From: Spirosoma lacussanchae
Lineage (GTDB): Bacteria > Bacteroidota > Bacteroidia > Cytophagales > Spirosomataceae
Direction: 5' to 3'
NCBI RefSeq assembly: GCF_005870035.1
Contig: NZ_SWJG01000006.1
Span: 62,001-126,000 of the forward strand
Length of the DNA: 64,000 nucleotides
The notes under the pieces are model-generated. The model was given only the letters and a program-made list of their open reading frames with translations. It was not told where the DNA came from and made no database searches. Made by a program: the position numbers and the translations under genes. Shown here in pieces: positions 28,835-50,063 of the stretch; within the stretch, counting starts at the first letter, position 1, and each line of letters starts with the position of its first letter.

Positions 28835-28866
28835 GCCAGCCAGCTCTCGCCAGGGCTGGCTTTTTT
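28835..28866 (+). terminator. Terminator upstream of late promoter 1
   Basis: 7-bp stem GCCAGCC/GGCTGGC then T6. The late promoter starts 3 bp after the T-run. The same terminator-promoter unit recurs at 49996-50035. Confidence 0.75.
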
Positions 28867-28868
28867 GT

Positions 28869-28903
28869 GTCCTTTCGGCTGGCCTGACCAGGGGTGAGCT
28901 TTG
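28869..28903 (+). promoter_or_regulatory. Late promoter 1 (GTCCTTT-N24-TTTG)
   Basis: GTCCTTT at 28869-28875 and GAGCTTTG ending 28903. Drives the spanin-like pair. The first ATG (28908) is only 5 bp after TTTG, so the transcript would be nearly leaderless. Confidence 0.7.
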
Positions 28904-28907
28904 CCCC

Positions 28908-29282
28908 ATGAAACAGCTATTTACTACCGTCTGGAATTTCATCCGGAGCAATTCAGCCCGCTTTGTCTGGGAGCTGGTGGCCGTGGCGCTAGGCATCGGC
29001 ATTACCTATTTGATTAGCCGGTTTACGGGCCAGCAAACGCTCCAGGCCTGCCAGGATGAGCGGGCCGAACTGCTCCGAAAGAATGCCACCGGCCAGGCCT
29101 TTGCCGACTCGGTAAAATGGAGCGCCGTAGTGAGTGAAAAAACCCAACAAATCAACCGCCTACAAAATGAACTACTTTATTTCCGTGAAAAGAACGCTCT
29201 TGATTCTGCTGCTGCTGTTACCGAGCTGGAAACTATGCGGGCAATCAACGCCCGGTACAAAAGCAAAACCGGCCACCGATAG
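28908..29282 (+). CDS. Inner-membrane spanin-like protein (Rz-like)
   Basis: 124 residues: an N-terminal transmembrane segment (FVWELVAVALGIGITYLIS, about 20-40) and then a long periplasmic helix with coiled-coil character (QACQDERAELLRKNATG through VSEKTQQINRLQNELLYFRE). This is the layout of phage i-spanins, which fuse inner and outer membranes in the last step of lysis. A second secreted protein starts inside it in another frame, just as Rz1 starts inside Rz. The match is by topology, not sequence. Confidence 0.55.
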   Translation: MKQLFTTVWNFIRSNSARFVWELVAVALGIGITYLISRFTGQQTLQACQDERAELLRKNATGQAFADSVKWSAVVSEKTQQINRLQNELLYFREKNALDSAAAVTELETMRAINARYKSKTGHR

Positions 29283-29598
29283 CCTGGCCGTGGCCGTGGA
29301 GTTGATCCACAACGCCAAAAACATCCAGCAGGATCTAATCCGGCTCGATTGGGCCATAAAACGGGAGGTAGTCTACAAGGCTCAACTATCCGAGCAAGAG
29401 ACCGCAAACCAGCGGCTCACGGGCCAGCTCCAGAACTGCCAGCAGACGAACGGCCAGCTCACCACCCAACTAACCACCAGTAAACAGGCGCTCCAGGAGC
29501 AGACGCTAAAAACCAAAACCGCCAAACTGGAAATTTGGGCCATGCGGGTGGCCGTGGCGCTCTACGTAGCGGGCAAACTAAAGGGCGTTTTGCCGTAA
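29167..29598 (+). CDS. Secreted spanin partner-like protein, overlapping frame
   Basis: 143 residues from ATG 29167, overlapping the upstream gene by 116 bp. It begins with a signal sequence (VKRTLLILLLLLPSWKLCG) with Cys in the place of a lipobox though not a standard one, continues as a coiled coil (QETANQRLTGQLQNCQQTNG, TTSKQALQEQTLKTKTAK) and ends in a weak hydrophobic stretch. An embedded secreted frame inside an Rz-like gene suggests an o-spanin role. It could also be a tail-linked coiled-coil protein. Confidence 0.5.
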   Translation: MNYFISVKRTLLILLLLLPSWKLCGQSTPGTKAKPATDSLAVAVELIHNAKNIQQDLIRLDWAIKREVVYKAQLSEQETANQRLTGQLQNCQQTNGQLTTQLTTSKQALQEQTLKTKTAKLEIWAMRVAVALYVAGKLKGVLP

Positions 29599-29604
29599 CA
29601 AACC

Positions 29605-29639
29605 GTCCTTTTCGGCAGGTGCTCCACCGGCCAACTTTG
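29605..29639 (+). promoter_or_regulatory. Late promoter 2 (GTCCTTT-N24-TTTG)
   Basis: GTCCTTT at 29605-29611, CAACTTTG ending 29639, spacing exactly 24. Lies in the gap before the portal block; first ATG at 29675. Confidence 0.7.
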
Positions 29640-29674
29640 AGCGCTGAACAAAATCAATCAATCGACCATCAATT

Positions 29675-29878
29675 ATGGCGCTCAAACTAGTACGGTTTTC
29701 AACCGATTCAGACGGGCCGGCACGGCAGGTTTCTATCAATCCGGAGTACGTGGCCACCGTGGAGCAGGATATGGCCAAACCTGGCCAAATCTGCCACCTG
29801 ACAATGGTAAACGGCCAATATTACCGGATCCTGGAGCCGGAGGAAATAGCCAATAAACGGCTCCAGTATGGCAGCTAA
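29675..29878 (+). CDS. Small phage protein
   Basis: 67 residues, beta-rich: 'VRFSTDSDGPARQVSINPEY' then 'CHLTMVNGQYYRILEPEEI'. The size and 'VNGQYYRI' ending recall small FlbD-like proteins, but the link is weak. First gene of the portal block; overlaps the next by 11 bp. Confidence 0.5.
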   Translation: MALKLVRFSTDSDGPARQVSINPEYVATVEQDMAKPGQICHLTMVNGQYYRILEPEEIANKRLQYGS

Positions 29879-30167
29879 TACGATCAGCAGGCGGGCCATG
29901 TTTGCCGAGATCCACCAGGACACCCTGGAGGGCGGCAGAAACCACGTTTTTAGCCTTAAGTACGTCAAAAAGGACAGTACGGTAGGCTATAAAGCCAGGG
30001 TTCGCAAATGCGCCAAAAACCTGCCAGGAGAGCGGGGCTATCGGGGTAACATCAACCTAAACCACGTGCTGCTCCTGGAAAACCTGGAGGCCAATAAACA
30101 GCCGTTCGAGCTGGCTATTGATCTAATCACGCACTACAACGGCCTACGGGTCGTACACACCTTTTAA
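29868..30167 (+). CDS. Small phage protein upstream of portal
   Basis: 99 residues, basic. 'FAEIHQDTLEGGRNHVFSLK', then 'VGYKARVRKCAKNLPG', then an acidic helix 'LLENLEANKQPFELAIDLIT'. Not recognised. Overlaps its upstream neighbour and ends 9 bp before the portal gene, so it probably serves head or connector assembly or DNA binding. Confidence 0.5.
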   Translation: MAANTISRRAMFAEIHQDTLEGGRNHVFSLKYVKKDSTVGYKARVRKCAKNLPGERGYRGNINLNHVLLLENLEANKQPFELAIDLITHYNGLRVVHTF

Positions 30168-30176
30168 TTCCAAACA

Positions 30177-31451
30177 ATGGAGTGGATTTCTGAAAACGCG
30201 TTTGTTATTCCGAGCGATAGAAACGGGGCGCTGCTCCAGCTCACCGACGGACGCGATCAATTTTTCGGTACTAGCCTGCTGCTCTCCCGGCAGTATGGTT
30301 TAGATCATATTCCCTGGGGGGCCGAAGATAACCAGCCCCAACAAATGGCCAGGATGGTGGAGAAAAACAACCAGGTACGGCCACTCCTGGAGGCCAGCCG
30401 GGATATGATTTACGGCACAGGCATAGGCTTTTTTCGACAGATCCAGGAGGGGAACACCATCCACCTGGAGCCCTACCAGGACGAACGGCTAACCGATTGG
30501 GTGTACCAAACCGAGCTGGCCAATTACATGATTGCGGCCATTAACGAGCGGGTGACGAATGCCAACCACTGGACACGGTTCGAGTTCACGCCGGAGGGGG
30601 TGCCACTGCTCTCGGTATCCGATGGCTTCACCACGCGAATAGGCAGGCCGGTAGGGGGTAAAATAACCCACTATCTGCAAAACGCGGCCTTTGGGGAGGG
30701 GTGGGGAGCCGTGGCCACCAGCAGCGAAAAGCTACCCGCGTTTGATCGGGTAAACCCGCTCCGGCACATCGTTAGTCTGTTCCATAGCCGGGAGCACATT
30801 TCTGGCAATCCATACTACGCGTTTCCCTCCTGGTGGTGCAGTAAAGACTGGATCGAGGTGGCCAACCTAATACCGCTCTTTCACAAATCCGGCCTTAAGA
30901 ATGGGTACAATATCAAGTACCTAATCAAGATGCCAAAGGACTACTTCGATAAGGAGGGCGGCAAGGATCTGGAGCCCAAAGAAATCCGTAAAAAGTGGGC
31001 GGCATTCGGGGAGAACCTGAAACAATGGCTTTCCGGAGTGGACAACGTGAATAAATCGCTCCTGGTGCGGTATCTGCGGGGGGATGATGGCAAAGCGCTG
31101 GAGAGTATTGATGTGGTGCCGTTGAAAAATGAAATGTCCGACGACGCCTATAACAAGGTTTGGGAAATGGCCAATATTTCTATTACCAACGCTGCCGGGA
31201 TCCTGCCGGTTTTAGGGGGCGTAACACCAGGCAGCAAGAGCGGAGACAGTGGAAGCCAGGTGAGAACCGTGGCCGACTATCAACAGCATTTCAGGACGCC
31301 CGTACAACGCCAGATTTTGCTGGAGCCAGTCCGGATGGCGCTCCGGATTATGAATTTTAAAGACGTTGTGCCAGCCTTTAAAGAGGTGCAACTAACGACG
31401 CTCGACAAGAACCCCACCGGCAAACAGGCCGTAGTTAACCACGCCAGCTAA
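30177..31451 (+). CDS. Phage portal protein
   Basis: 424 residues, normal portal size. The pattern fits Bacteroidetes-phage portals: N-terminal 'IPWGAEDNQPQQMARMVEKN', the clip/stem region with 'LLEASRDMIYGTGIGFF', 'IVSLFHSREHISGNPYYAFP', and the C-terminal 'MSDDAYNKVWEMANISITNA' leading to 'AGILPVLGGVTPGSKSGDSG'. The portal forms the dodecameric ring through which DNA enters the head. Unusually, it is about 24 kb away from terminase, separated by all the tail genes. Confidence 0.8.
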   Translation: MEWISENAFVIPSDRNGALLQLTDGRDQFFGTSLLLSRQYGLDHIPWGAEDNQPQQMARMVEKNNQVRPLLEASRDMIYGTGIGFFRQIQEGNTIHLEPYQDERLTDWVYQTELANYMIAAINERVTNANHWTRFEFTPEGVPLLSVSDGFTTRIGRPVGGKITHYLQNAAFGEGWGAVATSSEKLPAFDRVNPLRHIVSLFHSREHISGNPYYAFPSWWCSKDWIEVANLIPLFHKSGLKNGYNIKYLIKMPKDYFDKEGGKDLEPKEIRKKWAAFGENLKQWLSGVDNVNKSLLVRYLRGDDGKALESIDVVPLKNEMSDDAYNKVWEMANISITNAAGILPVLGGVTPGSKSGDSGSQVRTVADYQQHFRTPVQRQILLEPVRMALRIMNFKDVVPAFKEVQLTTLDKNPTGKQAVVNHAS

Positions 31452-32419
31452 TGCTCACCAAAGAGATTTTAAAACAGCAGCTCGGAGGCATAAACGCCAA
31501 AATTGATTTCCAGACCGTGGAGCCGTTCGTTCGATTTGCGGAGCGCTGGTTTCGGGAGCAGGTGGGCCAGGAGCTGCTGGATTACCTGGCCAGCCTGACC
31601 GCTCCCGGCATTGGCCAGGACGAGGCCGAATTGATCGACCTGGCCCAATCCTGTATGAGTTGGCGCTGCTATGAGCTGGCTTTTCCCCACCTAAAGTTAC
31701 GGGTGGGTGATTTAGGGATTCAGAAGCTAAACACCACTAACGCGGTGGCCGTGGCTAAGTGGGAGTACGTGGACAGCCGGGAGGCTAACCTGGCCATGTT
31801 AGACCTGGCATTAGAAAACTTTTGGAGCGCCGTGGAGCGGATCCGGCCAGCGGCCTGGACAGGTTCAGCAGCCTACAAAAAGCGCCAGGGTGTATGGATC
31901 CGGAGCGCCGGGGAACTGGCCGAACATATCCCGACGCTGGGCCGCAAGAGCCGGTTATTTGACCAGCTCCTAACCTACATCCGACGCGCCGAAGCGGTGT
32001 ATATAAAGCCGGTACTTACCGACGCGGTGTATAAACAGCTAAAACAGCGCTGGAGCGATCCGGAGGCCGACCTAACCGAACCGGAGCAGGAGCTGCTGGA
32101 GCGGATCCGGCCCGCGCTGGCTCACCTGGCTCTATTCGAGGCTTACCCCTACTTACCGCTCACGCTCGACACCACCGGCATAACCGAGCGCCGTAGTAAG
32201 GATGGCACGATGGAGGAGGTAGCACCGAGCGCCGACAGCAGGGGCACCCAAAAACGGCAGCTCTACCAGGATGGCCAGTTTTACCTTTCAGAGCTGGCCG
32301 ACTACCTAAACGACACGGCCAGCGCCCACCAGTGGGCGGGCTTTTACCAGGCCAACCAGGCCCGCAATGGCCAGCCGGAGGCCGATGATTTTACGCATTC
32401 CTCTTTAGTAATTCTTTAA
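31451..32419 (+). CDS. Phage head-tail connector-type protein (position-based)
   Basis: 322 residues, starting on the last base of the portal stop (TAATG). Helical throughout: 'FQTVEPFVRFAERWFREQVG', 'QSCMSWRCYELAFPHLKLRV', 'WEYVDSREANLAMLDLALEN'. This kind of protein often follows the portal in Bacteroidetes phages. I would expect a connector or head-completion role from position; no catalytic motif is present. Confidence 0.5.
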   Translation: MLTKEILKQQLGGINAKIDFQTVEPFVRFAERWFREQVGQELLDYLASLTAPGIGQDEAELIDLAQSCMSWRCYELAFPHLKLRVGDLGIQKLNTTNAVAVAKWEYVDSREANLAMLDLALENFWSAVERIRPAAWTGSAAYKKRQGVWIRSAGELAEHIPTLGRKSRLFDQLLTYIRRAEAVYIKPVLTDAVYKQLKQRWSDPEADLTEPEQELLERIRPALAHLALFEAYPYLPLTLDTTGITERRSKDGTMEEVAPSADSRGTQKRQLYQDGQFYLSELADYLNDTASAHQWAGFYQANQARNGQPEADDFTHSSLVIL

Positions 32420-32430
32420 CTAGTCAATCC

Positions 32431-33198
32431 ATGCAATCAGTAAACAACAACCACGACCAGGGCGGGGAAACGCCCACCAATTTCGACCAGGTAGCCGACG
32501 CGATCCAGGAGCGTAAACGCCAGCTAGAGCTGGAGGAGCAGGAGCTGGAGCGTAAACGGTTCGAGGCCCAACAGGCCGAACGGGAGCGCAAACTTGACGC
32601 CTACAACGCGCTCCGGGACGACGCCAACGGATTCCGTGCCACAGCGGCCAAAGAGACCGACGAAGCCAGCAAAAAAACCTATGTGCAGTGGGCGCTCGAT
32701 GCCGACCGGCAGGCCGTGCAACTGGCCAGAGAGCTAGGCCTGGCCATCGAAGAACCGGAGCCGGAGCTGGAGCCCACCACCCTGGAGAAAGTAACCAGCC
32801 TGCTCCGGCATCGGGTGGGGGCGCTGGTGCAAATGATTTTGTTAGGGGCGGCTATCATGTGGGCCAGCACCAACTTTGAGAGTATTGGCCAGCACATCCA
32901 GGAGCTAAACAAATCGCTCCCGGTAGAGCAGCAAATGAACGCCTACGACCTGACGAGCAATCAAAAATTCTTTTTTGAGAAGTACGTGGAGTTTTGGGAT
33001 TTGCCGGTGGGCCTGTTTAAACTCCTAATCCTGGTGCCGTTCGTGGGGCTCTACCTGCTCCCGTTTATCCGGAGCCGCAAGGATTTTTTTACCGAGTTTT
33101 TCGAGGATCTAACACCCTACCAGAGATGCGTCATTACGCTGGCTTTTGTGGCCTTATTTATTTTGCATTCTGCCTTGTCGCACGGGGTCAAACCGTAA
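32431..33198 (+). CDS. Coiled-coil protein with two membrane segments, holin-like candidate
   Basis: 255 residues. Residues 25-60 form a long charged coiled coil (LELEEQELERKRFEAQQAER), followed by a helical linker and then hydrophobic segments 'VGALVQMILLGAAIMWAST' (about 130-150), 'LPVGLFKLLILVPFVGLYLL' (about 190-210) and 'CVITLAFVALFILHSALSHG' at the end. Overlaps the endolysin gene by 73 bp. Location immediately in front of the endolysin suggests a holin or holin-linked role. Confidence 0.5.
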   Translation: MQSVNNNHDQGGETPTNFDQVADAIQERKRQLELEEQELERKRFEAQQAERERKLDAYNALRDDANGFRATAAKETDEASKKTYVQWALDADRQAVQLARELGLAIEEPEPELEPTTLEKVTSLLRHRVGALVQMILLGAAIMWASTNFESIGQHIQELNKSLPVEQQMNAYDLTSNQKFFFEKYVEFWDLPVGLFKLLILVPFVGLYLLPFIRSRKDFFTEFFEDLTPYQRCVITLAFVALFILHSALSHGVKP

Positions 33199-33788
33199 CA
33201 AAGCAGCCGGTGGCCACCCGACAGGTGGCCACCCTTAAGCCGGTAAAAACGGTGGCTTATCCGCTCAAACCGATCAGCCTGGACGAGACGATTTTACGCC
33301 AGGCCATCCTGGATTCCGCTGCGGCATTCGTCGGTATGGTGGAGCTCACTAACCACAATGACGCGCCGTGGATTACCAAGATAAACGCCTACAACGGTCT
33401 ACCGATCCGGAGCGCCTACTGCGCGAGTGGATTCTACTACGCCCACCGGGTCAACGGGGTACGGTTGCCGGTGCGGGCGCTGGGGGCGGTGAGCTCTTAT
33501 TTTGCGGTTCCGGCTAAAATCATCTATCGACGCAACCAGCGGGGAAACCAACGGCTGGGAGTGATGCCGCGCCGAATGGATGCCGTGAGCATTTACACCA
33601 GCCACATAGAGGGGTTAGTGGATGACGTTTGGGATCCGGATGAGGAATATGTAACGCTAATCGGGTTCAACACCTCCGGAGGCCGGGGCACCAAATACGG
33701 CTGCTACATTAACCGGAGACGCAAGAGCGAAATTAAATTTATTGCCAACTGGCTCACGCCTTTTTTAACCACCTATAAACCACAGTAA
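33126..33788 (+). CDS. Secreted CHAP-like endolysin
   Basis: 220 residues with a signal-type N-terminus (GLIYFAFCLVARGQ) that could also serve as a SAR anchor. The enzyme domain from about 60 starts 'ILDSAAAFVGMVELTNHNDA', followed by the probable catalytic Cys in 'RSAYCASGFYYAHRVNG' and a His in 'SIYTSHIEGLVDD', the order seen in CHAP/NlpC-like murein peptidases. It likely cuts peptidoglycan at lysis. Starts within the preceding membrane-protein gene in another frame. Confidence 0.65.
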   Translation: MRHYAGFCGLIYFAFCLVARGQTVTKQPVATRQVATLKPVKTVAYPLKPISLDETILRQAILDSAAAFVGMVELTNHNDAPWITKINAYNGLPIRSAYCASGFYYAHRVNGVRLPVRALGAVSSYFAVPAKIIYRRNQRGNQRLGVMPRRMDAVSIYTSHIEGLVDDVWDPDEEYVTLIGFNTSGGRGTKYGCYINRRRKSEIKFIANWLTPFLTTYKPQ

Positions 33789-33796
33789 CCACCACA

Positions 33797-33922
33797 ATGG
33801 ACGCACTACCCAAACAAAAAATGGCCTCCTTTACCATGTGGGCGCTGCTTACCCTCCTGGGTTTAGCGGTGGCCGGATGGGAGTTTGGATGCCGGTTAAT
33901 GGCTCTCCTGTTTGCCGAATAG
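33797..33922 (+). CDS. 41-residue membrane protein after the endolysin
   Basis: Short frame from ATG 33797: MDALPKQKMASFTMWALL followed by 'TLLGLAVAGWEFG' and 'CRLMALLFAE'. One transmembrane segment. It lies 8 bp behind the endolysin gene and uses phage-type codons. A small holin or antiholin is possible; unproven. Confidence 0.45.
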   Translation: MDALPKQKMASFTMWALLTLLGLAVAGWEFGCRLMALLFAE

Positions 33923-33952
33923 TTCACCCTCTTTTATGCCAATCAAAAACCC

Positions 33953-34123
33953 ATGAGATACTTTTTTTACACCCTGCTCCGGTGGCTGCTTTGCCTGCTG
34001 GAGTTCGCCGTGGCCGTACTCTACTGGCTACCCGTTCGGCTCCTTTGGGGTAAGAACACCTTTGATTACGTAGTCGAATATCTGAGCTTAAAAGGGTGGC
34101 TTAAAAAGCACCTGGGCAACTAA
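33953..34123 (+). CDS. 56-residue membrane protein
   Basis: Short frame from ATG 33953. Hydrophobic N-terminal half (YFFYTLLRWLLCLLEFAVAV, then LYWLPVRLLW) and a basic C-terminus (YLSLKGWLKKHLGN). Its TAA overlaps the ATG of the next gene by one base (TAATG), which supports it as real. Function unknown, perhaps lysis. Confidence 0.5.
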   Translation: MRYFFYTLLRWLLCLLEFAVAVLYWLPVRLLWGKNTFDYVVEYLSLKGWLKKHLGN

Positions 34124-34983
34124 TGCAGACAATCCAATTCGATGGCCAGGCCTACCAGTTGCCGGAGGCCTGGCAGGAGCTCGACCCGAACCACCTGCCG
34201 GAGCTGGTGCAACTGGTGTACTTTACGCCACAGACGGAAGAAACCAGCCACACCTTACTCCGGATCGTTTTAGGGATCCGGAGGAAACGCTGGCAAACGA
34301 TGATGCAAACGCACTTTGGCCCAAAAGTCGGACAGCGGGCCAGGCGGGCCAATGCCATCGTATTGCACACGCTGAAACACCAGCTCAGATGGCTCTATAC
34401 GGAGCCGATCCGGCAGCAGCCATTTACCAGCCTGGAGCTGGATTTTGGCCTGGAGCTGCTACTACCGGAGGCCGGTTTTTATACCATGAGTTACGGCGAA
34501 CTGACCGACGCGTATATTCATTTTCTGGTGTATATCCGGCAACTGGTACAAGGCCAAAAGCATCTGGATTTGTTGGTGGCCACGCTCTGCCGACCAAGGC
34601 GGGCGGGCAACTACCAGGCGGCTCCGGACTGGAACGGAGACCACCGGGAGCCCTACAATGAGCACCAGGCCAAAGAGCGGGCCAAACTCCTGGCTCATGT
34701 GGAGCCAGGCTATAAAATGGCCGTGCTGCTGTTTTTTCTGGGCAATATGCAGCAGATCCTGGAGCGGTATGAGTTATGGGGCCAGGAGGAGGGAGAGCCG
34801 GAGGAGTACCCTGGCCAGGGCTGGGTAAAAAACAGCCACCTGCTGGCCGGTAAGGGTATCTTTGGCAATATCGACCAGACCAAAGCGGCCAACGTGCACG
34901 ACGTACTTTTATTCCTGGAGGAACATAGAAAGGATCTGCTGGCCGACATTGCACACCGTAACCAACAGGAGGCCGACCAATGA
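34123..34983 (+). CDS. Phage protein of unknown function (tail-assembly candidate)
   Basis: 286 residues, helical. 'AYQLPEAWQELDPNHLPELV' at the N-terminus followed by 'LRIVLGIRRKRWQTMMQTHF'. No motif recognised. It starts at the stop of the preceding small gene and overlaps the next by 4 bp. Position between connector and tail blocks suggests a role in tail or neck assembly. Confidence 0.5.
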   Translation: MQTIQFDGQAYQLPEAWQELDPNHLPELVQLVYFTPQTEETSHTLLRIVLGIRRKRWQTMMQTHFGPKVGQRARRANAIVLHTLKHQLRWLYTEPIRQQPFTSLELDFGLELLLPEAGFYTMSYGELTDAYIHFLVYIRQLVQGQKHLDLLVATLCRPRRAGNYQAAPDWNGDHREPYNEHQAKERAKLLAHVEPGYKMAVLLFFLGNMQQILERYELWGQEEGEPEEYPGQGWVKNSHLLAGKGIFGNIDQTKAANVHDVLLFLEEHRKDLLADIAHRNQQEADQ

Positions 34984-35450
34984 CCAGCACCCAACAGTTT
35001 TGGCAGTTCTTTAAAGCGCTGGCCGACGCGGTGCCAGGCATGAAAACCGTAACGCGCTCCGGTGGCGATAAAATGGACAGGCTGCTAGGCAGCACCCGAA
35101 GCGAAGATATTTATCCGGCCACGTTTTTACTCCGGCCTAAATACAGCCTGGAGGAAAACGGGGCGGGCCTGGTAACGGCCTGGTTCGATGCCACGTATTA
35201 CGTACTTTGCAGCGCCCAAATGGGAGAGGAGGCCGATGAGGACAGCGCTTTCGATGAGGCCGAACGGCTGGCCAGTACGCTCTCGGTATTGATTCGACAG
35301 CAGGAGGATGGCTATAAAACCCTAATCGACCCGATGGCAAAGGTATTTATGGAGCCAATCCAGATGGTTAACGGCGAGGCCTCTTTTGGCTATGAAGTAC
35401 GGCAACGAATTGGTTTAATGGTAAACGCTGAAGTGTATGCAGATCTTTAA
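34980..35450 (+). CDS. Phage protein, neck/tail completion candidate
   Basis: 156 residues, starting in the previous stop (ATGA). Alpha/beta, with 'VTAWFDATYYVLCSAQMGEE', 'FDEAERLASTLSVLIRQQED' and 'MEPIQMVNGEASFGYEVRQR'; this layout resembles small tail-completion proteins. Position-based call. Confidence 0.45.
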   Translation: MTSTQQFWQFFKALADAVPGMKTVTRSGGDKMDRLLGSTRSEDIYPATFLLRPKYSLEENGAGLVTAWFDATYYVLCSAQMGEEADEDSAFDEAERLASTLSVLIRQQEDGYKTLIDPMAKVFMEPIQMVNGEASFGYEVRQRIGLMVNAEVYADL

Positions 35451-35631: not shown

Positions 35632-35690
35632 TTTCATAACTTTTTGGCTTCTAACGAGAAACATGCTAATCAAACTCAATTGCTTACACA

Positions 35691-35915: not shown

Positions 35916-35920
35916 GTCTC

Positions 35921-35955
35921 GTCCTTTCCCTCCGGAGCGCACTGGCTCACCTTTG
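35921..35955 (+). promoter_or_regulatory. Late promoter 3 (GTCCTTT-N24-TTTG) with overlapping hairpin
   Basis: GTCCTTT at 35921-35927 and CACCTTTG ending 35955, spacing 24. The -7 part is embedded in a perfect 10-bp hairpin (35944-35953 with 35963-35972) that is followed by AT5, so promoter and terminator-like hairpin overlap. First ATG at 35979. Confidence 0.7.
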
Positions 35956-35978
35956 TACAAACAAGGTGAGCCATTTTT

Positions 35979-39442: not shown

Positions 39443-39507
39443 TGATATTTTTCAGTAATTAACCATATAGTTAGATTGTATGGTTAATTACTGAAAAATA
39501 TCATCAT
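39439..39507. terminator. Perfect 29-bp inverted repeat between tail gene and NACHT gene
   Basis: Arms 39439-39467 and 39479-39507 are perfectly complementary, 11-nt loop. It holds the stop codons of both convergent genes. AT-rich with A5/T5 tracts, so it can terminate in both directions and isolates the cargo from late transcription. Confidence 0.85.
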
Positions 39508-41377
39508 AACTTATGTTTTTAGTTTGAATTTCTAATTCTAGGTTTTTAATAATTAGATTTATCTCATCTTTTAATTCTATTAAAGAATTGATTGGTAGAA
39601 AAACTTCAAATATTTTATCAAATTTGTGTATATTTCTTAAAGGAAAATATATAATTTCTTCTCTAGTTATGCTTGAATTTTTAATATAATGATTTAGTTC
39701 ATTTTTGAGCAAAAAATCTAGCTCAATTTTTTTTGCACGATCTAAACTGAGAAAATTGACTATTTCTTTAAATAGCCCATCTGTAATATGAAGCTGAAAT
39801 TTTAATTTAAAGTTTTCTTCTGTCCCGATTTTGTGAAAAAGGGTAGAACTTTTGCGGATATCTTCAAGATTATCGATTAACATATCTGCACTATTGATGA
39901 ATATATCATCATCTCCCAAATCATTAACTTCGTCTACTGCTAAATATAGGGTGAGTATTGTTAATTTGGCGATTTCTATATAGGCGTAAGTTAACTCTGC
40001 GTCGTTTTTTGTCTCAAATAATTCTTTGTACATCATTAAGCGCTTTAGTAGTACTTCTTTGACAAAGTCAATTCTATCTAGTTCTGACATAAGACTAAAT
40101 AAGTTACCACTATTGTCAAAACTTTTGTTTGATATAAAATTGCAAATTCTACTGTAGGCGTTTGATTTTTGATTAGAAGGGAGATCTTTTATGAATTGTG
40201 CAGTAAAAAATTCTTGTAAAGATCTGTGAGGGTATGAATACTGGAATCCATCTAAGACTAATATTGAAATTTGTGTTCTGAGATCATAAATTAAGTCGTC
40301 ATTATTGTATGACAAGCCGGTAAATTGCTTAATTTGAGTTAGTTTGCTTCTCAAATATTCATCTGTAAAAGAATATATACCTTCTGTTTGAGATATAAAA
40401 GAAAAACAATTTAATATCTTCTCAAAATCTTCTCTTTCCAGTTTTGATTTTTTCTCTCTAGGAAAACTGAATTTTGTAATTGCGTCATGCTTTGAATACA
40501 ATGTGTCGAATACATTTTTGTAGAATGCGCTTTTTCTTCTAGGTATCTCAGGATGACTTTCGTAAGCTAAAATAAACATTGATAGTAGAAGTGGATTTCT
40601 CAAGAAAGAGGTTATATCTTTATTACTTGGATCAGATATTGTCTTAAGGATTCGACCTCTTCTCTCCGAATCATTCACAATCTTTGTGGTGAATTTAATT
40701 ATATCGTCATTGTCTAGTCCTTGAAGATGAAAATCATGAAATCTTGGAAAGTTTTCAATTCCTCCTCCAGGTCTTGTAGAAATTACATACCAGTTTTCAG
40801 AAAAAGAATCAATAAAAAATTCGATTTGCTTATTTATTGATTGTTTTTTTGATGATGTTATTTCGTCATATCCATCAAAAAGAAATAGGAATTTCCCACT
40901 TTTTAGGGCTCTGGAAAAATGGTTATTTGATGGTTGTAGATTTGTTTTTACCACTTTTTCAAGGATCAACTTTTCTAAATTGTCATTGTAATCGTTTAGG
41001 TGCCTTAGTTCGATTAATACCGGAATTTTGCTTTTATTTAAAATTGAGCTTAAGTATATATATTTAATTAAAGTTGTTTTTCCGCTCCCAGCACTGCCAA
41101 GTAAGGTGATGTATTTGTATTCTTCAAATATTTCATTTGTGTTAATGAAATCGGTTGTTAAGAGTCTATATTTGCATTTGATTGGATAGTATATGTCATA
41201 GAATTTAACTTTTTCGTTTCTAGAAAGAAATGTATTTGTGTAATAGTATTTTGATGTTTGAGATTCTAAATATTCTCTGAGTCCCAGGTCAAGTAAATAT
41301 TTTATCTCATTATTTATTGTCTCAAAGCTGTTTAAAATGGGTGTGATCAAGTTTGTTACTTCTACTTTCGCGTCCAT
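39488..41377 (-). CDS. NACHT-domain NTPase, likely anti-phage defence protein
   Basis: 629 residues from ATG 41377 (MDAKVEVTNLI); the frame is open to 41491 but the extension has no domain character. A helical N-terminal part (1-85), a NACHT NTPase with Walker A GSAGSGKTT (about 94-102), Walker B KFLFLFDGYDEI (about 162-173) and sensor STRPGGG (about 200-206), followed by winged-helix/helical parts and a C-terminal domain of 200 residues without recognised repeats. Bacterial NACHT proteins detect phage and abort infection. Very AT-rich, antisense to the tail genes, with its own terminator: a moron. No separate effector domain is recognised. Confidence 0.85.
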   Translation of the reverse strand: MDAKVEVTNLITPILNSFETINNEIKYLLDLGLREYLESQTSKYYYTNTFLSRNEKVKFYDIYYPIKCKYRLLTTDFINTNEIFEEYKYITLLGSAGSGKTTLIKYIYLSSILNKSKIPVLIELRHLNDYNDNLEKLILEKVVKTNLQPSNNHFSRALKSGKFLFLFDGYDEITSSKKQSINKQIEFFIDSFSENWYVISTRPGGGIENFPRFHDFHLQGLDNDDIIKFTTKIVNDSERRGRILKTISDPSNKDITSFLRNPLLLSMFILAYESHPEIPRRKSAFYKNVFDTLYSKHDAITKFSFPREKKSKLEREDFEKILNCFSFISQTEGIYSFTDEYLRSKLTQIKQFTGLSYNNDDLIYDLRTQISILVLDGFQYSYPHRSLQEFFTAQFIKDLPSNQKSNAYSRICNFISNKSFDNSGNLFSLMSELDRIDFVKEVLLKRLMMYKELFETKNDAELTYAYIEIAKLTILTLYLAVDEVNDLGDDDIFINSADMLIDNLEDIRKSSTLFHKIGTEENFKLKFQLHITDGLFKEIVNFLSLDRAKKIELDFLLKNELNHYIKNSSITREEIIYFPLRNIHKFDKIFEVFLPINSLIELKDEINLIIKNLELEIQTKNISYDDIFQ

Positions 41378-41518
41378 AAATATTACAGGTAAGATAAATT
41401 TTTTTTGTTTGTGTGGCCTGCACGAAAATCCAATGTACTGTATGGAGTGGGATAGGTCACCTAAATTTAAGTAATTATCGGTATGGCCCAATGTTATTGT
41501 GTTTTAAAGGCTGTATTG

Positions 41519-41552
41519 GTCCTTCTGTCAACATTCCTTTTCACTGTATTTG
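41519..41552 (+). promoter_or_regulatory. Variant late promoter before the tape-measure block
   Basis: GTCCTTC at 41519-41525 and TTTG at 41549-41552; spacing 23, and the A of nAnYTTTG is missing. Weaker than the five others. Placed after the inserted NACHT gene, where late transcription would otherwise be cut by its terminator. Confidence 0.4.
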
Positions 41553-41573
41553 CTGGCCTAAACAGCAGATACT

Positions 41574-45100: not shown

Positions 45101-45907
45101 GCGGCAAACTGGCCACTCATTAGCCGGATGTTCCGGAATGCCCGCACACCTGGCCGACGCTCCACGCCGGTACTCCAGGACAGAGGGCCAGCCTTTCGGG
45201 AGGGCGGTTTGTTTACCAGTCCGTACTGGAAAAAGGAAATGTATTTGTTTGGCTCCAAGAAAGCCAAACGCGAGGCCGAAGCGCAGGCCAGGGAGGCCGA
45301 AGCAGCCGCGAAACGAGCCGAAGCCGAAGCACAGGCGGCAATGGCCACGGTGTACGACGGTGCCACCTCCGGAGACGCCGGAGACGCCAACGGGACAGCC
45401 GACGCGGCCACCTACAACGGCCAGGCCGACGCGCAGGCAGCAGAAGCCGCGAAGATGGCGCAAACGCAGTTGGAGCTCCTGGAAAACATCGGCCTGGCCA
45501 TCGAAACGATGGACGAAAATATACAGCTCTCCAATAAGAATTTGGCGCTCCAGATCGAGGAGGCTTTAGCGCTGCTCAATACCGACGTAAACACCGGCCT
45601 GGATAACCTGGCCAGCCAAATGGAGAAAGCGCTGGAGGCCTTGAATACGGACGTTTCCACCGGCCTGGAGAGCCTGGCCGAATCGACTAAAACCGGCCTG
45701 GATAACCTGGCCCAAACCACAAAGGGCGGGCTGGATGGCATGGCCGTAGAGGTGGGCGGGCTTAAAGGATCCATCAATGCGGTAGAGGGTGCCACCAGGG
45801 AGGTACGGGGGGCCGTGGACGGTGTACAGGGCGCTGTATGGAGCACGAACCAGGCGGGCCGGTTAGACGCGCTGATAGGGGCCATTTCATCCTTTGCTGG
45901 TAAATAG
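42137..45907 (+). CDS. Tail tape measure protein
   Basis: 1256 residues, the longest phage gene. Long coiled-coil stretches at the N-terminus (ELNDKAKALKKTINEIEKEG) and from about 480 to 900, with a characteristic phage tape measure core ('FEKYGKVLDTALGSQKEAQQ', 'TAFSVDELTDGYVKMINRGL', 'KMMETLDGKASNMGDSFDSL') and hydrophobic segments near 150-175 ('FMALQVIGFIIDIG'), 350-390 and 905-930. Sets tail length and helps DNA passage. The C-terminus has degenerate repeats ('NTDVNTGLDNLASQME', 'NTDVSTGLESLAESTK'). Confidence 0.9.
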   Translation: MALNLNETATLSLKLNNGDVSKSIDELNDKAKALKKTINEIEKEGGKGSENWQKYKSELKEVQTATSQLKKEVDLTTLNYGQLESVIKQLNKDLRGMKPGTEEFIAATKRLGEAEKQFKGVKEEVDKIKKGGEDLAQPALWQKIGGGVGVMAKAFQAFMALQVIGFIIDIGKSIFETTSKFEKYGKVLDTALGSQKEAQQAMAALKDLGAKTAFSVDELTDGYVKMINRGLRPSQKEMVAMTDLAASQGKQFDQLVEAALDAQTGEFERLKEFGIKASKEGDNVTLSFKGLNQTVKNTPEAINGAITAFGEMEGVAGQNAKMMETLDGKASNMGDSFDSLKVQIGNQLRPVFLMILDTISNGIGIFGGFTGVLATVITAVVTTVKTLADFAISSGSVFKNTGLAIKEFLSGNFEAAGAAWDQTKAAGLAAVEQVKTNVKTGAAAVVAIWSDPGNTAKAQFAGQTQGKAHGDALTSEQKKALEAQEKEAEKARKKEQQEQEKALAERAKANEAALKKIADTEAEIYLASVKGELQQHTVKLMQKRDKEAEAILNTVADEELKNQQIKLLDEKLVADIQRLHTEHRQKELAAEAKAAQERLQANNQIREQERQANLALLDLKELQAAGNARKLIEIERDRANLQAKYKKDKLDEEEQAELAKASRDAERRIAELGDVKDKTEQTRQIKDQLAQQVTAINNRFRAEEQVAEASHSEKLKQIELQEKQQRQERRTAFSNSFKALLDGDLMAFAQQTGKIVSGEQEAWQKRMQKNMESYDQVADLAKQGVAFLNKLTQERLDKEIAASKKETETKVADSQKRMEEAIEAAEKQAEAEKLAAGDSAEKIAEIEEKLATSKAEIREQFESEADDIRKDGADKEKALAKQKWEADKRAQVATALISGAQAALKALASGIFPVNLVFAGIIAGLTAVQIAKIKSQPAPVFEHGGFVARGGRHGSEYGRGGIALVDRQSQREVGEMEGDEAIISREQTAANWPLISRMFRNARTPGRRSTPVLQDRGPAFREGGLFTSPYWKKEMYLFGSKKAKREAEAQAREAEAAAKRAEAEAQAAMATVYDGATSGDAGDANGTADAATYNGQADAQAAEAAKMAQTQLELLENIGLAIETMDENIQLSNKNLALQIEEALALLNTDVNTGLDNLASQMEKALEALNTDVSTGLESLAESTKTGLDNLAQTTKGGLDGMAVEVGGLKGSINAVEGATREVRGAVDGVQGAVWSTNQAGRLDALIGAISSFAGK

Positions 45908-46021
45908 GCCTAAGTAAATAAATACGCTCATTCGTTCAACTGTTGTAGGTTAGGCGGCTAAACCGTATCTTTAAGGGATTCCAATAGCTGCCTAACCTAT
46001 GAAAAAACCACTACTCAATCC

Positions 46022-46495
46022 ATGCGTAAAAAAGTTGTTCTTTCCGTTCCCCGTTACCTCAAAAAGTACTTATTGAATGCCGAATTTGGCCAGGTGGTCG
46101 ATGGCACGTTACAGGTTGGAGGCCGTAGCTTTATCGGCTCCTATATTGCCAGCGTTTCCCGGCCTATTCCTTACCCGTTACCGCGCCTGGATCTGGCAGG
46201 CACCAAACTGATAATTTGGTACAGCAGCCGCGAACGAACCCACGAAGTACCACCGGAGAAACTGGCCAGCCTGGTACGCTCTTTAGATGAGCAATTCAGA
46301 CGGAGCCTAATTTGCGAGGTGCGGGCGCTGCATGAACTCTGCGGGGGTGACTACTCCAAGTTTATCCGCAACTTTTTAAAGCGTTACAGCATCGAGCCGG
46401 ATGTGGACATAGATTTCGATACGGTGCGGAAAATTTACCGGGATTACCTGGAGCGAATGGACAAATCGAACCGGGAGCTTTACCAGGTAGCGTAA
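46022..46495 (+). CDS. Phage protein of unknown function, regulator candidate
   Basis: 157 residues, basic N-terminus (MRKKVVLSVPRYLKKYLLN), a beta-rich middle ('RLDLAGTKLIIWYSSRERTH') and a helical, partly basic C-terminal part ('GDYSKFIRNFLKRYSIEPDV') that could bind nucleic acid. It stands alone between the tape measure and a set of tandem repeats with a terminator. An overlapping frame from 45999 (25 codons) precedes it. A role as late regulator is speculative. Confidence 0.5.
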   Translation: MRKKVVLSVPRYLKKYLLNAEFGQVVDGTLQVGGRSFIGSYIASVSRPIPYPLPRLDLAGTKLIIWYSSRERTHEVPPEKLASLVRSLDEQFRRSLICEVRALHELCGGDYSKFIRNFLKRYSIEPDVDIDFDTVRKIYRDYLERMDKSNRELYQVA

Positions 46496-46526
46496 AAATA
46501 TTTTGCATTAAAAAGGCCGGACTGGT

Positions 46527-46580
46527 GCAGTTTGGGCCGGATATGAGCAGTTTGGGCCGGATGTGTGCAGTTTGGGCCGG
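46527..46580 (+). repeat. Three tandem 20-bp repeats
   Basis: GCAGTTTGGGCCGG occurs at 46527, 46547 and 46567, exactly 20 bp apart, with a semi-conserved ATRTGW spacer. The iteron-like layout suggests a protein binding site. It lies 84 bp upstream of late promoter 4, before a terminator. Confidence 0.75.
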
Positions 46581-46594
46581 GCTGTTTCTACCAC

Positions 46595-46628
46595 AAAACG
46601 GCCTCCATGTTGAATGGGGGCCGTTTTT
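46595..46628 (+). terminator. Terminator upstream of late promoter 4
   Basis: AAAACGGCC/GGCCGTTTT stem (46595-46603 with 46619-46627), 15-nt loop that itself has CC/GG pairs, ending in T5. Confidence 0.75.
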
Positions 46629-46663
46629 GTTGGTCTACTACCCGTAAAATCGGGTGCTTTTTC

Positions 46664-46698
46664 GTCCTTTCCAGGAGCCTGGCCGCGCTTTACTTTTG
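46664..46698 (+). promoter_or_regulatory. Late promoter 4 (GTCCTTT-N24-TTTG)
   Basis: GTCCTTT at 46664-46670 and TACTTTTG ending 46698, spacing 24; the -7 part is a full TAnnTTTG. First ATG at 46707, 8 bp after TTTG, so nearly leaderless. Confidence 0.75.
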
Positions 46699-46706
46699 GA
46701 TCAAAA

Positions 46707-47273
46707 ATGATTGTAACAAATCAGCTTTTATCCAACTATGAACAAGGGGCGAACGTGGGCCATGTGGCCAGGTTACGACTCCTGCCGGTAGAGGCCGTGC
46801 TGGCCATCGTTCCACCAGGAGCGGGGCCAGCCACGGCCACGCCGTTTACGGTCTCCAGGTACGGCCTGGCCGTGGCCAACGGAGCGCAAACCACGGAGCT
46901 CCTGTTTCCACCAGGGGGCTGCTCCTTTACGGAGGGCTCCGCACAGGATGCCGCTGGCATCGTTTACGCGCCGGAGCTCACGGCCACCCTCCCCAAAAAT
47001 CAGCCTGCTCTACTGGACTGGCTCCAGCGCAACCAGGGCAGGCGCTGGGTGGCGCTGTTTCTCGACCGAAACGGCCAGGCCTATGTGGCGGGTGAGCCAG
47101 GCAACGGGCTCCGGCTCCAGCTAAACCGAGCCATTGCGGCAGGTAACTCCATCGCTATTTCACTCAAAGGAAAAGCCACCCATCCGGCCTGGCTCCTGGA
47201 GACGTTCGACGCGGCTGTTTTGTTCGCGCACGTTGATTTTGACCTAAGTTTTGATTTCTCTTTTAACGCTTAA
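46707..47273 (+). CDS. Tail/baseplate protein upstream of fibre
   Basis: 188 residues from ATG 46707 (MIVTNQLLSNYEQGANVGHV). Beta-rich, with 'ARLRLLPVEAVLAIVPPGAG' and 'LFPPGGCSFTEGSAQDAAGI'. Start chosen because upstream codons of the same frame run through the late promoter. Followed by the fibre gene at 11 bp; probably a distal tail or fibre-attachment protein. Confidence 0.5.
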   Translation: MIVTNQLLSNYEQGANVGHVARLRLLPVEAVLAIVPPGAGPATATPFTVSRYGLAVANGAQTTELLFPPGGCSFTEGSAQDAAGIVYAPELTATLPKNQPALLDWLQRNQGRRWVALFLDRNGQAYVAGEPGNGLRLQLNRAIAAGNSIAISLKGKATHPAWLLETFDAAVLFAHVDFDLSFDFSFNA

Positions 47274-47284
47274 AACGCCAACCA

Positions 47285-48946
47285 ATGTCAGCACCAGACG
47301 ACAGTTATTTAAAGGCACTTATTGATACCAACCTGGCCGACTCCCCACCAGGCCAGCCGCGCAGCATCAAACCGGCCATTCTACGCTTTACCCTAAAGAC
47401 TCTTATAGACTGGACAAAAACCGCCATCAACGGGGCCACTAATGCCTGGCTCCGAGTAGGAGACAACCAACCGACAGGCGTATCAACCGATACGATTTAC
47501 CACCGGGGTAAAGTGATTGCGGGCCGAATGACCGACGACGGGAGCGGGGCGTTTATCCAGGCTCCAAGCGCCCGATTTGAGGCCGTTAACGGCATTCCTG
47601 GCCCGTTTGCGGCCATTACGTCGGTGGGTGAGAGTACGCTGCCAGGCACACGCTATTACGCGTTTACTGAACTGCCAGCATCGGCACAAGGTACGTTTGA
47701 TTTTATCGACATATCCTTAACCGCTAAACCCTGGGATAACAGTTCAGGCAAGCACCTCCATCTGGAAATGTACGCGGCCAACCGGGGGACATTTCGATAC
47801 GAATACACGGTACAGGGAGAACAGGATGGTGTAGGCATTGTAGCGTATCAACAACCCGATGGCCGTACCATTTTTTACGTGGTCTCTGATAATAACTTTC
47901 GGTCGTTTGTGGTTACGATCAACCGACACCAACAAGCCACCTTGTACGGAAACTTTGTTTATTCGGCCAACCCTACCGGCACTCTTGTATTTAGTTCCCT
48001 AAACACAACCGCTTACAAACCCTTAACCATTATTCGGAGCCGGTTTACCAAGTTCAATGTAGGCAACTCGGATAGTGCGTATCCGGCTGAAACGTTGAAT
48101 GAACCGGGTTCCTCACAGTTGACGCTGGCAGCTAACTGGATTTCGGGAAGTTCTGATTTGGGACTGGTAAACAGCAACCTGGCCGGAGGGGGCTTTTCAT
48201 TCTGGCAGCAGACTGGAGCAGCCGCAAAAAAACTGCTGGCCTGGTTAACGCAGGATGGCAATTTAGGTCTAGGCACCCTCACACCAGGCGAACGGCTCCA
48301 CGTTGTTGGCTCTGGTTACTTTACGGAATCCGTAAAATTTCCAAGCACCTTATTAAACCGGAAAGTGATCCTTTACGACCTGAACGGCAATGACCATCAG
48401 TACTACGGCATGGGGGTTACTAATGTAGGGTATAGGTATCAGATTTCTAGTGTAGACGGTGCCCACGTTTTTTACGCCGGAACCTCTCCGACCACCAGCG
48501 CCGAACTTATGCGTATAACCGGAAGCGGACGAGTTGGTATAGGCATGGCCGCGCCCGCTTACACCCTGGATGTTGGGTCGAGTAACCCAAGCAGTGGCAT
48601 AATTGCTCAGTTCACCAATACGGCCACCTCAAACGGCACCGGGGCCATTATGCAGATCCATCAGGGAGGTATTGCCATTTGGCGTTACGGGATTCCTGCC
48701 GGAGCTGACGCGTTTGTTATTTATGGCTGGGGCGGTGGATCCTTTCCCGAATACCTGAGAATTTCCGGAGATGGCCAAATGCGGGTAAACGGCTCCATTT
48801 CGGGCAAATATGCCACCTCCAACGTTAATCCGGCTCCGGCTGATTTAGCCGATGGCTATTGGCGAGTGCAGCGCAACAGCTCAACCGGAGAGGTGCGTAT
48901 GTGGGTCAACGTGGGCGGCACTATCAAATCTGTTTTATTCTCTTAA
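47285..48946 (+). CDS. Tail fibre protein
   Basis: 553 residues, beta-rich, Gly/Asn/Ser/Thr rich. N-terminal attachment part ('SYLKALIDTNLADSPPGQPR', 'TLKTLIDWTKTAINGATNAW'), then a fibre shaft with repeats of the fibre type: 'NLGLGTLTPGERLHVVGSGY' and 'VGIGMAAPAYTLDVG', and a C-terminal tip ending in 'SSTGEVRMWVNVGGTIKSVL'. These V/L-G-x-G-T-x-x-P repeats are common in phage fibres of Bacteroidetes. It likely sets host range; no chaperone domain is seen. Confidence 0.7.
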   Translation: MSAPDDSYLKALIDTNLADSPPGQPRSIKPAILRFTLKTLIDWTKTAINGATNAWLRVGDNQPTGVSTDTIYHRGKVIAGRMTDDGSGAFIQAPSARFEAVNGIPGPFAAITSVGESTLPGTRYYAFTELPASAQGTFDFIDISLTAKPWDNSSGKHLHLEMYAANRGTFRYEYTVQGEQDGVGIVAYQQPDGRTIFYVVSDNNFRSFVVTINRHQQATLYGNFVYSANPTGTLVFSSLNTTAYKPLTIIRSRFTKFNVGNSDSAYPAETLNEPGSSQLTLAANWISGSSDLGLVNSNLAGGGFSFWQQTGAAAKKLLAWLTQDGNLGLGTLTPGERLHVVGSGYFTESVKFPSTLLNRKVILYDLNGNDHQYYGMGVTNVGYRYQISSVDGAHVFYAGTSPTTSAELMRITGSGRVGIGMAAPAYTLDVGSSNPSSGIIAQFTNTATSNGTGAIMQIHQGGIAIWRYGIPAGADAFVIYGWGGGSFPEYLRISGDGQMRVNGSISGKYATSNVNPAPADLADGYWRVQRNSSTGEVRMWVNVGGTIKSVLFS

Positions 48947-48950
48947 CCTT

Positions 48951-49397
48951 ATGGACTTTATCAAACTACCTATTTCTACCGAGCTGGTAACTGGTTTTAA
49001 GCGCCAGGCCAAACACGAAAGTTTTGTAATCCTGCCGGATTTGCAGATGGTGCAGCAGGTGCGGGTTATTACCGTAGATGCCGCTGGCCATCCACTCCTG
49101 GAGCGGATCCTGGCCGACGACTCGTTAAGCGCCGAACAACGCCAGGCGCTAGGCCAGCGGTATGCTGACCAGATCGTTACGCGCCAAACTACCGGGGCGT
49201 TTGTCGATACCACCGGCCTGGTAGTGGAGCCTAGAGAGCCGGGAGCCATTCCACAGCGGAGCTTTTTCCAGGCCATTACCTTGGGAGACCTCAAAAAGCA
49301 GGGGCTCACCATTACCGATAAAACCACCGTGGCCTCCCTGATTTACGCGCTGATCGGCCAGGAAATTACCAACATCGACAACCGGGGCGGGCTATGA
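48951..49397 (+). CDS. Phage protein following the fibre
   Basis: 148 residues from ATG 48951 (MDFIKLPISTEL), 4 bp after the fibre stop. Mixed alpha/beta ('AKHESFVILPDLQMVQQVRV', 'ILADDSLSAEQRQALGQRYA'). Position after a fibre gene suggests a tail-fibre assembly or accessory role; no family is recognised. Overlaps the DUF1353 gene by 4 bp. Confidence 0.5.
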   Translation: MDFIKLPISTELVTGFKRQAKHESFVILPDLQMVQQVRVITVDAAGHPLLERILADDSLSAEQRQALGQRYADQIVTRQTTGAFVDTTGLVVEPREPGAIPQRSFFQAITLGDLKKQGLTITDKTTVASLIYALIGQEITNIDNRGGL

Positions 49398-49855
49398 TGG
49401 AGCCCACCCTTTTAATTCGCCGGACAGCCACGTACTACACCGTGCCGGTCATGGTAGACAGCCGACTCAACAAGCCCGACCAAATCAGCCTGGCCGTTAC
49501 GGTGGTGGTGGAGCTGGCCGACTATCGGCGGGTATTGCTGCCGGTGGGTTTTGTGACGGACTGCCATTCCACGCCAGCCGCTGGCCAGTCGATCCTGCCA
49601 GGCTTCAACAACCGGACAAACCTGGCCGCTTGGGTGCACGACCGGCTGTATATGTGTTGGGAGGAGTTCCTACTGGTGTATCCGGAGTTGGCCGACGCCG
49701 ACGCCAGAGCCTACGCCGACGCGGCTTACCTGGAGCTTATGGAACGGTTTAACCGGGGGCGGTTCCGGAATCGGGTGTACCTGGCAGCGGTGCGGCTGTT
49801 CGGCTGGTGGAATTGGCGCACGTTCAGGAGCCAGGCCACCCCACCAACCGGATAG
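49394..49855 (+). CDS. DUF1353 phage protein
   Basis: 153 residues with the DUF1353 pattern: 'VVVELADYRRVLLPVGFVTD', then 'NLAAWVHDRLYMCWEE', 'ADADARAYADAAYLELMERF', and 'VYLAAVRLFGWWNWRTF'. DUF1353 proteins are frequent in prophages near tail and lysis genes; the conserved Asp and His suggest a metal-dependent enzyme but activity is not established. Start overlaps the upstream stop. Confidence 0.75.
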   Translation: MMEPTLLIRRTATYYTVPVMVDSRLNKPDQISLAVTVVVELADYRRVLLPVGFVTDCHSTPAAGQSILPGFNNRTNLAAWVHDRLYMCWEEFLLVYPELADADARAYADAAYLELMERFNRGRFRNRVYLAAVRLFGWWNWRTFRSQATPPTG

Positions 49856-49857
49856 CC

Positions 49858-49990
49858 CAAAACCGTAGATTCTTTGGTGGGCGGGGGCTAAAATCGGCAT
49901 CGAGGCCGACCGAGCGGGCCGGAGCCGCACCAGATCCGGCCCAAACCAACCCGCTCCAGCCACCCACCCGCCAAAGAATCTACGGTTTTG
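49858..49990. repeat. 20-bp inverted repeat enclosing a structured spacer
   Basis: Arms 49858-49877 and 49971-49990 are perfectly complementary; the 93-bp inside is GC-rich with its own stem (GGGCCGGA/TCCGGCCC near 49914-49950) and an imperfect continuation of the outer stem. Together about 133 bp of strong RNA structure directly before the terminator-promoter unit of the head block. Confidence 0.7.
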
Positions 49991-49995
49991 CTTTT

Positions 49996-50026
49996 CCAGC
50001 CAGCTCTCTCCAGGGCTGGCTTTTTT
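49996..50026 (+). terminator. Terminator upstream of late promoter 5
   Basis: CCAGCC/GGCTGG stem with T6 at 50021-50026. Nearly identical to 28838-28866, including the sequence up to the promoter. Confidence 0.75.
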
Positions 50027-50028
50027 GT

Positions 50029-50063
50029 GTCCTTTCGGCGGGCAGGACTGGAAAGCACTTTTG
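50029..50063 (+). promoter_or_regulatory. Late promoter 5 (GTCCTTT-N24-TTTG)
   Basis: GTCCTTT at 50029-50035 and CACTTTTG ending 50063, spacing 24. Drives the head/packaging block; first ATG at 50098. Confidence 0.75.

Follow-up and report, generated by a model that had tools for sequence, protein, structure and literature searches.

In Bacteroidota, the consensus of promoters read by the primary sigma factor is TAnnTTTG at -7 and TTTG at -33, as given in PMC7366714, and according to one survey many genomes of this phylum use neither Shine-Dalgarno-led nor leaderless genes (PMC3160421). In this study we have analysed a window of 64,000 nucleotides from Spirosoma lacussanchae (contig NZ_SWJG01000006.1, positions 62,001 to 126,000; G000:C20:62001-126000 in our numbering), which carries a prophage with repeated copies of a two-part element, a box GTCCTTT and, 20 bp further downstream, an octamer of the form nAnYTTTG. 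These elements resemble phage-activated promoters in the broad sense, in which a phage-specific box stands at a fixed distance from a host-type core before several late units. Judged from sequence, they almost certainly form a dedicated class of phage promoters. We assign a probability of roughly two in three (0.68) to a fuller model in which the host RNA polymerase would be directed to these promoters by a phage activator bound to GTCCTWW, most likely a protein of 157 amino acids (aa).

Paired boxes in the prophage and in distant phages

The initial annotation of this window reported five exact copies of GTCCTTT-N24-TTTG in which the second octamer base is always A. All five were found again on the + (late) strand, as the following predicted promoters:

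28869-28903, + strand: box-promoter 1, upstream of genes 28908 and 29134; ATG 4 nt past TTTG, predicted leaderless
29605-29639, + strand: box-promoter 2, upstream of genes 29675, 29868 and portal-type gene 30177 (weak PHROG portal match, E 0.0033)
35921-35955, + strand: box-promoter 3, upstream of tail-region gene 35979; -7 octamer within an inverted repeat
46664-46698, + strand: box-promoter 4, 9 bp upstream of the ATG at 46707 (by eye), with fibre-type gene 47285 beyond
50029-50063, + strand: box-promoter 5, upstream of gene 50098 (S49-type protease) and the rest of the head block

When the spacer was freed to 20-28 bp, the same five remained the only matches in the window, against a mean of 0.45 and a maximum of 4 in 100 shuffles. 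The whole host genome (6,329,194 bases) contained these five exact matches and no others, with a reversed control pattern giving 4+4, so that the motif does not occur at equal density in host DNA, which had been named with the initial annotation as a refuting observation; a stricter pattern, GTCCTTTY-N20-ANYTTTG, gave 5 matches there and none for the controls. Since GTCCTTT alone is not enriched in the window (12 seen, 9.35 expected), it is the pairing with the octamer and the spacing that carry the signal. A search that allowed 3 mismatches was uninformative (68 matches, 64 expected).

The element is conserved in related prophages. With the large terminase gene of the prophage as query (54977-56503, + strand), 222 genomes of the family were searched, and 55 proved to carry terminase relatives. 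For comparison we took 20 of these relatives, from 19 genomes and with at least 44% identity, each within a stretch of 40 kb (25 kb for G184). A matrix derived from 54 exact sites in the window and these relatives, applied with a cut-off score of at least 14, picked out 108 late-strand sites in the 20 prophages and the window and 3 opposite-strand sites, with 0.8 per strand in shuffles; about half of the 108 are training sites because the matrix was built from the 54 exact ones, and one of the 3 opposite-strand sites, window position 17735, lies outside the prophage. Such a matrix scan of related prophages had been proposed with the initial annotation, and its outcome agrees with it. Without any matrix, the late strand of the relatives holds 568.A.YTTTG octamers; 45 of these are preceded by GTCCTTT at a distance of exactly 20 bp, more than for any other 7-mer over 22 distances, and the best pair among the 633 octamers of the opposite strand reaches 4. 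The distance from the box to.A.[CT]TT[TC]G is 20 bp in 63 sites, 19 bp in 2 and 21 bp in 3. Among 58 exact sites, letters free of the query show A at octamer base 2 in 93%, C or T at base 4 in 93%, C or T directly after GTCCTTT in 93%, and A or T 4-6 bp upstream in 88-93%. The shuffles, the host-genome scan, the strand counts and the matrix-free pair count together lead us to reject a chance origin.

The sites are also conserved in position. Box centres fall outside open reading frames (ORFs) of at least 100 aa in 86 of 108 cases, although such DNA makes up 18.8% of bases, in line with the intergenic placement before gene blocks first described. Boxes precede gene 28908 in all 8 prophages that have it and gene 29675 in 5 of 5, and they stand upstream of the orthologues of 35979 (13 of 20), 50098 (14 of 20) and 46614 (13 of 19, a figure that is too low wherever the start was mapped at too great a distance). 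Gene 29868-30167, whose 99-aa product has matches in 18 of 20 relatives, has a box directly upstream in 14 of 19 prophages.

Boxes of this kind extend to much more distant phages. In the cultured Polaribacter phage Leef_1 (GC 29.7%), all six coding-strand copies of GTCCTTT lie 39-69 nt upstream of genes in the structural half; the early half has none on the coding strand, and two opposite-strand copies precede no gene (1.43 expected per strand). At 20 bp downstream of these boxes, five of the six octamers have A as their second base, but only three fit the paired pattern. Across 26 viral contigs of the Leef_1 type, the coding strand has 36 copies of GTCCTTT and the opposite strand 11, against expectations of 14.8 and 39.4; four of the 36 lie within the gene for the 157-aa protein (L197 3896, L198 2704, L199 4082, L201 2506), and we rejected these as promoters because they are coding coincidences. 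A blind count in more distant Leef_1-type contigs recovered GTCCTAT at 20 bp upstream of.A.YTTTG, 8 versus 1. With a looser octamer the tally is divided between spacings of 20 bp (18) and 21 bp (14), because octamers such as GAATTTTG can be read in both registers. GTCCTTT and GTCCTAT together give 78 distinct coding-strand sites, including the four coding coincidences, and 4 on the opposite strand. A second family of the order (f12), which we take to be Hymenobacteraceae, has GTCCTAA or GTCCTTA at the same 20 bp, with A at octamer base 2 in just 4 of 10 sites. Stretches of four Bacteroidota phages without a match to the hidden Markov model (HMM) of the 157-aa family (crAss001, B40-8, FCL-2 and phi14:2) yielded no paired site on the + strand and one on the - strand in 191.9 kb, crAss001 and phi14:2 being half records. 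Spirosoma and Polaribacter belong to two different classes.

Promoter core, predicted starts and surroundings

For comparison with host promoters we used 240 upstream regions in 400 kb of host DNA, which hold 48 TAnnTTTG octamers. Upstream of these, TTG is most frequent at 19 bp (5 of 48, a weak -33 peak), and GTCC occurs at none of the 18 distances tested. Because host TTG peaks at a spacer of 19, the TTT of the phage box occupies the position of the host -33 element, immediately preceded by GTCC. The second base of the octamer is A at 101 of the 108 sites and the first is T at 27; the base after GTCCTTT is C or T at 90 and G at 3, so that the host TTTG is not formed. The initial annotation saw a likeness to the TAnnTTTG box with its first T dropped and a -33 part unlike TTTG. 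The first T is optional rather than lost.

Of the 108 sites, 8 have an ATG that starts 3 nt past the octamer, 22 have one at 4 nt and 4 have one at 5 nt; among the 78 Leef_1-type sites, 42 have it at exactly 4 nt. The simplest reading is that transcription would start at the A of the ATG, 5 nt beyond the octamer, giving a leaderless mRNA; because the ATG sits exactly 4 nt past the octamer, many late mRNAs are probably leaderless. This prediction bears on a phylum in which, according to the survey cited above, many genomes lack both start modes (PMC3160421).

Several promoters lie next to, or apparently inside, terminator-like structures:

28838-28861, + strand: intrinsic terminator-like hairpin, ending just upstream of promoter 1
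46639-46656, + strand: intrinsic terminator-like hairpin, just upstream of promoter 4
49998-50021, + strand: intrinsic terminator-like hairpin, ending just upstream of promoter 5
35943-35973, + strand: terminator-like; perfect inverted repeat of 11 bp that covers the -7 octamer and the start predicted for promoter 3, with a T run behind it

The terminator scan is noisy, with 43 found in comparison with 26.2 in shuffles. Perfect inverted repeats of at least 9 bp spanning the octamer and start were found at 12 of 108 sites, against a mean of 0.5 and a maximum of 2 in 20 shuffles and 1 of 108 in displaced windows. At the tail promoter the arms vary among relatives yet stay complementary (GGCTCAC/GTGAGCC, GCCTCAC/GTGAGGC, GGCTCAA/TTGAGCC), and T runs follow there, while they are absent at most other repeat-bearing sites. 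We infer that the tail promoter may be nested within the terminator of the preceding unit, in which case readthrough RNA would fold and stop, whereas RNA begun in the loop would not.

Two poorer sites were found in addition to the five:

23953-23987, + strand: weaker box with octamer TACTTTTC, matrix score 17.0, upstream of early-region gene 24024
41519-41553, + strand: degenerate box GTCCTTC-N20-GTATTTGC, negative matrix score, upstream of gene 41574

Gene 24024 is found in 4 prophages and has a box upstream in 2 of them (the window and G211). Because this weak site precedes an early-region gene, calling the regulon late is slightly too narrow. Gene 41574 has a box upstream in 11 of 20 prophages, better than the degenerate copy in the window.

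The prophage itself runs from an HTH_3 repressor gene through the early region and the late genes (28908-56503) to an integrase gene at 58926 adjoining tRNA-Arg, the sole match in an Rfam scan:

22173-22592, - strand: HTH_3 repressor-type gene (Pfam), at the early end of the prophage

The late region encodes, among others, the terminase, an S49-type head protease and proteins of weakly portal-like and of tail-fibre type. The label of spanins first given for one block is neither supported nor excluded by a family match. A 433-aa gene (27351-28652, - strand) separates the early from the late region in antisense orientation, with no match in the stretches of the 20 relatives or in PHROGs, Pfam and PADLOC. 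Amid the tail genes, an AT-rich stretch carries an antisense gene for a 667-aa NACHT-type NTPase (39488-41491, - strand; E 2.4e-11), which has no match in the relatives' stretches and none in PADLOC and is possibly defence cargo; PADLOC was run on six prophage genes, with no matches. A PAS/HisKA/HATPase sensor kinase gene (56906-58870, + strand), cargo or host gene, lies between terminase and integrase.

A candidate activator and alternative readings

The initial annotation left the choice between an activator and a sigma factor. We consider it highly probable that a positive, phage-encoded activator reads the boxes, and the leading candidate, which we favour with less confidence, is the product of the following gene:

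46022-46495, + strand: candidate late activator of 157 aa with a pI of 9.5, from a conserved family; three helices predicted in its C-terminal part
45966-45973, + strand: host-like -7 octamer TATCTTTA, ending 48 bp upstream of the 157-aa gene (by eye), with no GTCC box
45948-45997, + strand: inverted repeat GGTTAGGC...GCCTAACC around octamer TATCTTTA

The gene is present in 19 of the 20 relatives, the exception being the prophage of G110, which is without most structural genes. That shortened prophage (L058) retains early genes, boxes, gene 29868 and terminase, and is a remnant or possibly a satellite. In Leef_1-type contigs the gene lies at most 10 kb upstream of terminase in 13 of the 15 that cover this stretch. 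Terminase served to locate the 20 prophages and loci L195-L221. The second-family loci and L161-L180 were instead identified by means of the 157-aa protein itself, and its presence in these two sets is therefore no evidence of co-occurrence. An AlphaFold2 model of the protein (pLDDT 90.5) has one Foldseek match in BFVD, the 157-aa protein of Leef_1 (E 1e-5), and an HMM built without that protein retrieves it (Leef1_39) at 2.5e-13; tblastn of the window's protein against 50,697 phage records gave nothing, and the relation emerged from the fold search alone. Against PDB, neither this model nor that of a 117-aa early protein has a match with E <0.001. Because the PDB matches of the 157-aa model are weak and mixed, some of them of helix-turn-helix type, DNA binding by this protein is inferred. 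Pfam offers no usable name for either family, and PHROGs has no name for the 157-aa family and one weak unnamed match for the 117-aa protein.

The 157-aa gene usually has a box-free, host-type promoter of its own. By hand tally, 13 of 14 such genes from Leef_1-type phages, Leef_1 included, have no GTCCT within 150 bp upstream, and 10 of the 14 have TAnnTTTG or TAnnTTTA at most 30 bp from the ATG; the same octamers occur at 23 of 269 box-free ORFs of Leef_1-type loci (157-aa genes included), at 0 of 47 boxed ORFs and at 3.4% of random positions. This suggests a cascade in which a host promoter would supply the 157-aa protein and the protein would then act on the box promoters. In the f12 phages gene order differs, and boxes flank the 157-aa gene on both sides in 6 of 9 loci (hand tally).

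Among other readings, the best placed involves sigma itself: the dedicated factor would resemble a sigma factor without being recognised as one, or two proteins would remodel sigma as T4 AsiA and MotA do, and GTCCTWW would be read by a replacement for sigma region 4. The rigid spacing and the altered first base of the octamer (T at 27 of 108) would fit changed sigma contacts, and MotA boxes likewise occupy the -35 place according to PMC2988021. Sigma70 r2 and r4_2 domains have 40 and 43 matches in the host genome and none in the prophage (C20:82232-122448), other sigma types not having been searched, which disfavours a sigma factor; the octamer also retains the A and TTTG of the host element. 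No MotA or AsiA name occurs among the Pfam families listed for the scanned prophage proteins, one of these lists covering 25 of 36 families and relatives of MotA and AsiA not having been specifically sought. We regard this reading as unlikely.

Far less likely still is that the activator is the 117-aa protein (25813-26166, + strand), which is encoded shortly upstream of the late genes. Its model (pLDDT 90.9) has strand-helix-helix repeats, possibly a tandem ribbon-helix-helix, and 9f0x_E, an F-plasmid relaxosome chain that we take to be TraY, and VirC2 (2rh3) appear low in the Foldseek list with E >1, both being ribbon-helix-helix proteins. In favour of this reading are also its gene position and its presence, by clustering, in 11 of 19 prophages, window included. 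We set it aside as a universal activator. It is just as improbable that the phages make use of a host protein, either a transcription factor or an ECF sigma, that recognises the box. The 40 Sigma70 r2 matches in the host genome speak for this, but that genome has no exact box pair outside the prophage, and the box is retained in phages whose hosts span two classes. By hand tally the strict pattern, with 44 matches versus 17 for controls in 11 genomes with terminase relatives of at least 59% identity, is rarer than its controls (12 versus 40) in the 20 genomes of the same genus for which no terminase relative is listed. That the sites are operators, packaging signals or chance occurrences is hardly credible: several do lie within inverted repeats, but the octamer, the fixed ATG offset, the strand bias and the position upstream of transcription units all speak for promoters.

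We return to the activator model. Host RNA polymerase with its primary sigma factor would contact the octamer nAnYTTTG, a relaxed TAnnTTTG, while the phage-encoded activator would sit on GTCCTWW at the host -33 location, a fixed 20 bp away, its contact substituting for or supplementing the -33 contact; transcription would begin about 5 nt past the octamer, often at the A of the start codon. The basic 157-aa protein would initially be expressed from its box-free, host-type promoter and then activate the late units. Whether the 157-aa family and GTCCTWW-N20-nAnYTTTG represent one ancestral late-gene switch of at least two Bacteroidota classes, which takes over the -33 contact of the unusual primary sigma factor and produces largely leaderless late mRNAs from promoters that are in some cases terminator-nested, is in our judgement an even bet. 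The claim of phage-dedicated promoters made at the outset is upheld by conservation that includes distant phages, by the 108 to 3 strand count, rigid spacing, intergenic placement and ATG position, and by absence from the rest of the host genome.

Comparison with described promoters

The timing of late-gene expression in Bacteroidota phages appears undescribed in the literature searched. No such late promoter is named in the titles and abstract openings searched, which leave subscription literature mostly uncovered, and the word promoter is absent from the accessible main text of the paper describing Leef_1. Given a box, a spacing, a predicted start and one candidate protein, the question can be tested directly, including in a phage that is in culture, and the box should aid the annotation of late units in viral contigs.

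Like primary-sigma promoters of Bacteroidota, the box promoters have the -7 A and TTTG, and the TTT of the box at the -33 position; they differ in the upstream GTCC and the optional first T. Their spacing is nearly invariant and predicted leaderless starts are frequent, whereas in B. thetaiotaomicron the -7/-33 spacing is variable and about 3.7% of 5' untranslated regions are shorter than 10 nt (PMC7366714). Unlike host promoters, in their own genome the phage boxes are found only within the prophage.

In phage P2 the activator gene lies near tail genes, much as the 157-aa gene does here. P2 late promoters, activated by Ogr, also resemble the box promoters in having one box common to several late units, as described in PMC3931495. 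The P2 box TGT-N12-ACA, however, is found near 1 of the 108 sites and at none of 6 window sites, and the 157-aa protein has just two cysteines, in contrast to Ogr, a zinc finger of the form CX2CX22CX4C. The T4 middle promoters, which depend on MotA and AsiA, are alike in that a phage box replaces the upstream element and the host downstream element is kept (PMC2988021). The box sequence differs from the MotA box, and the balance between the two elements is reversed relative to T4: in our promoters the box is strict and the -7 element loose.

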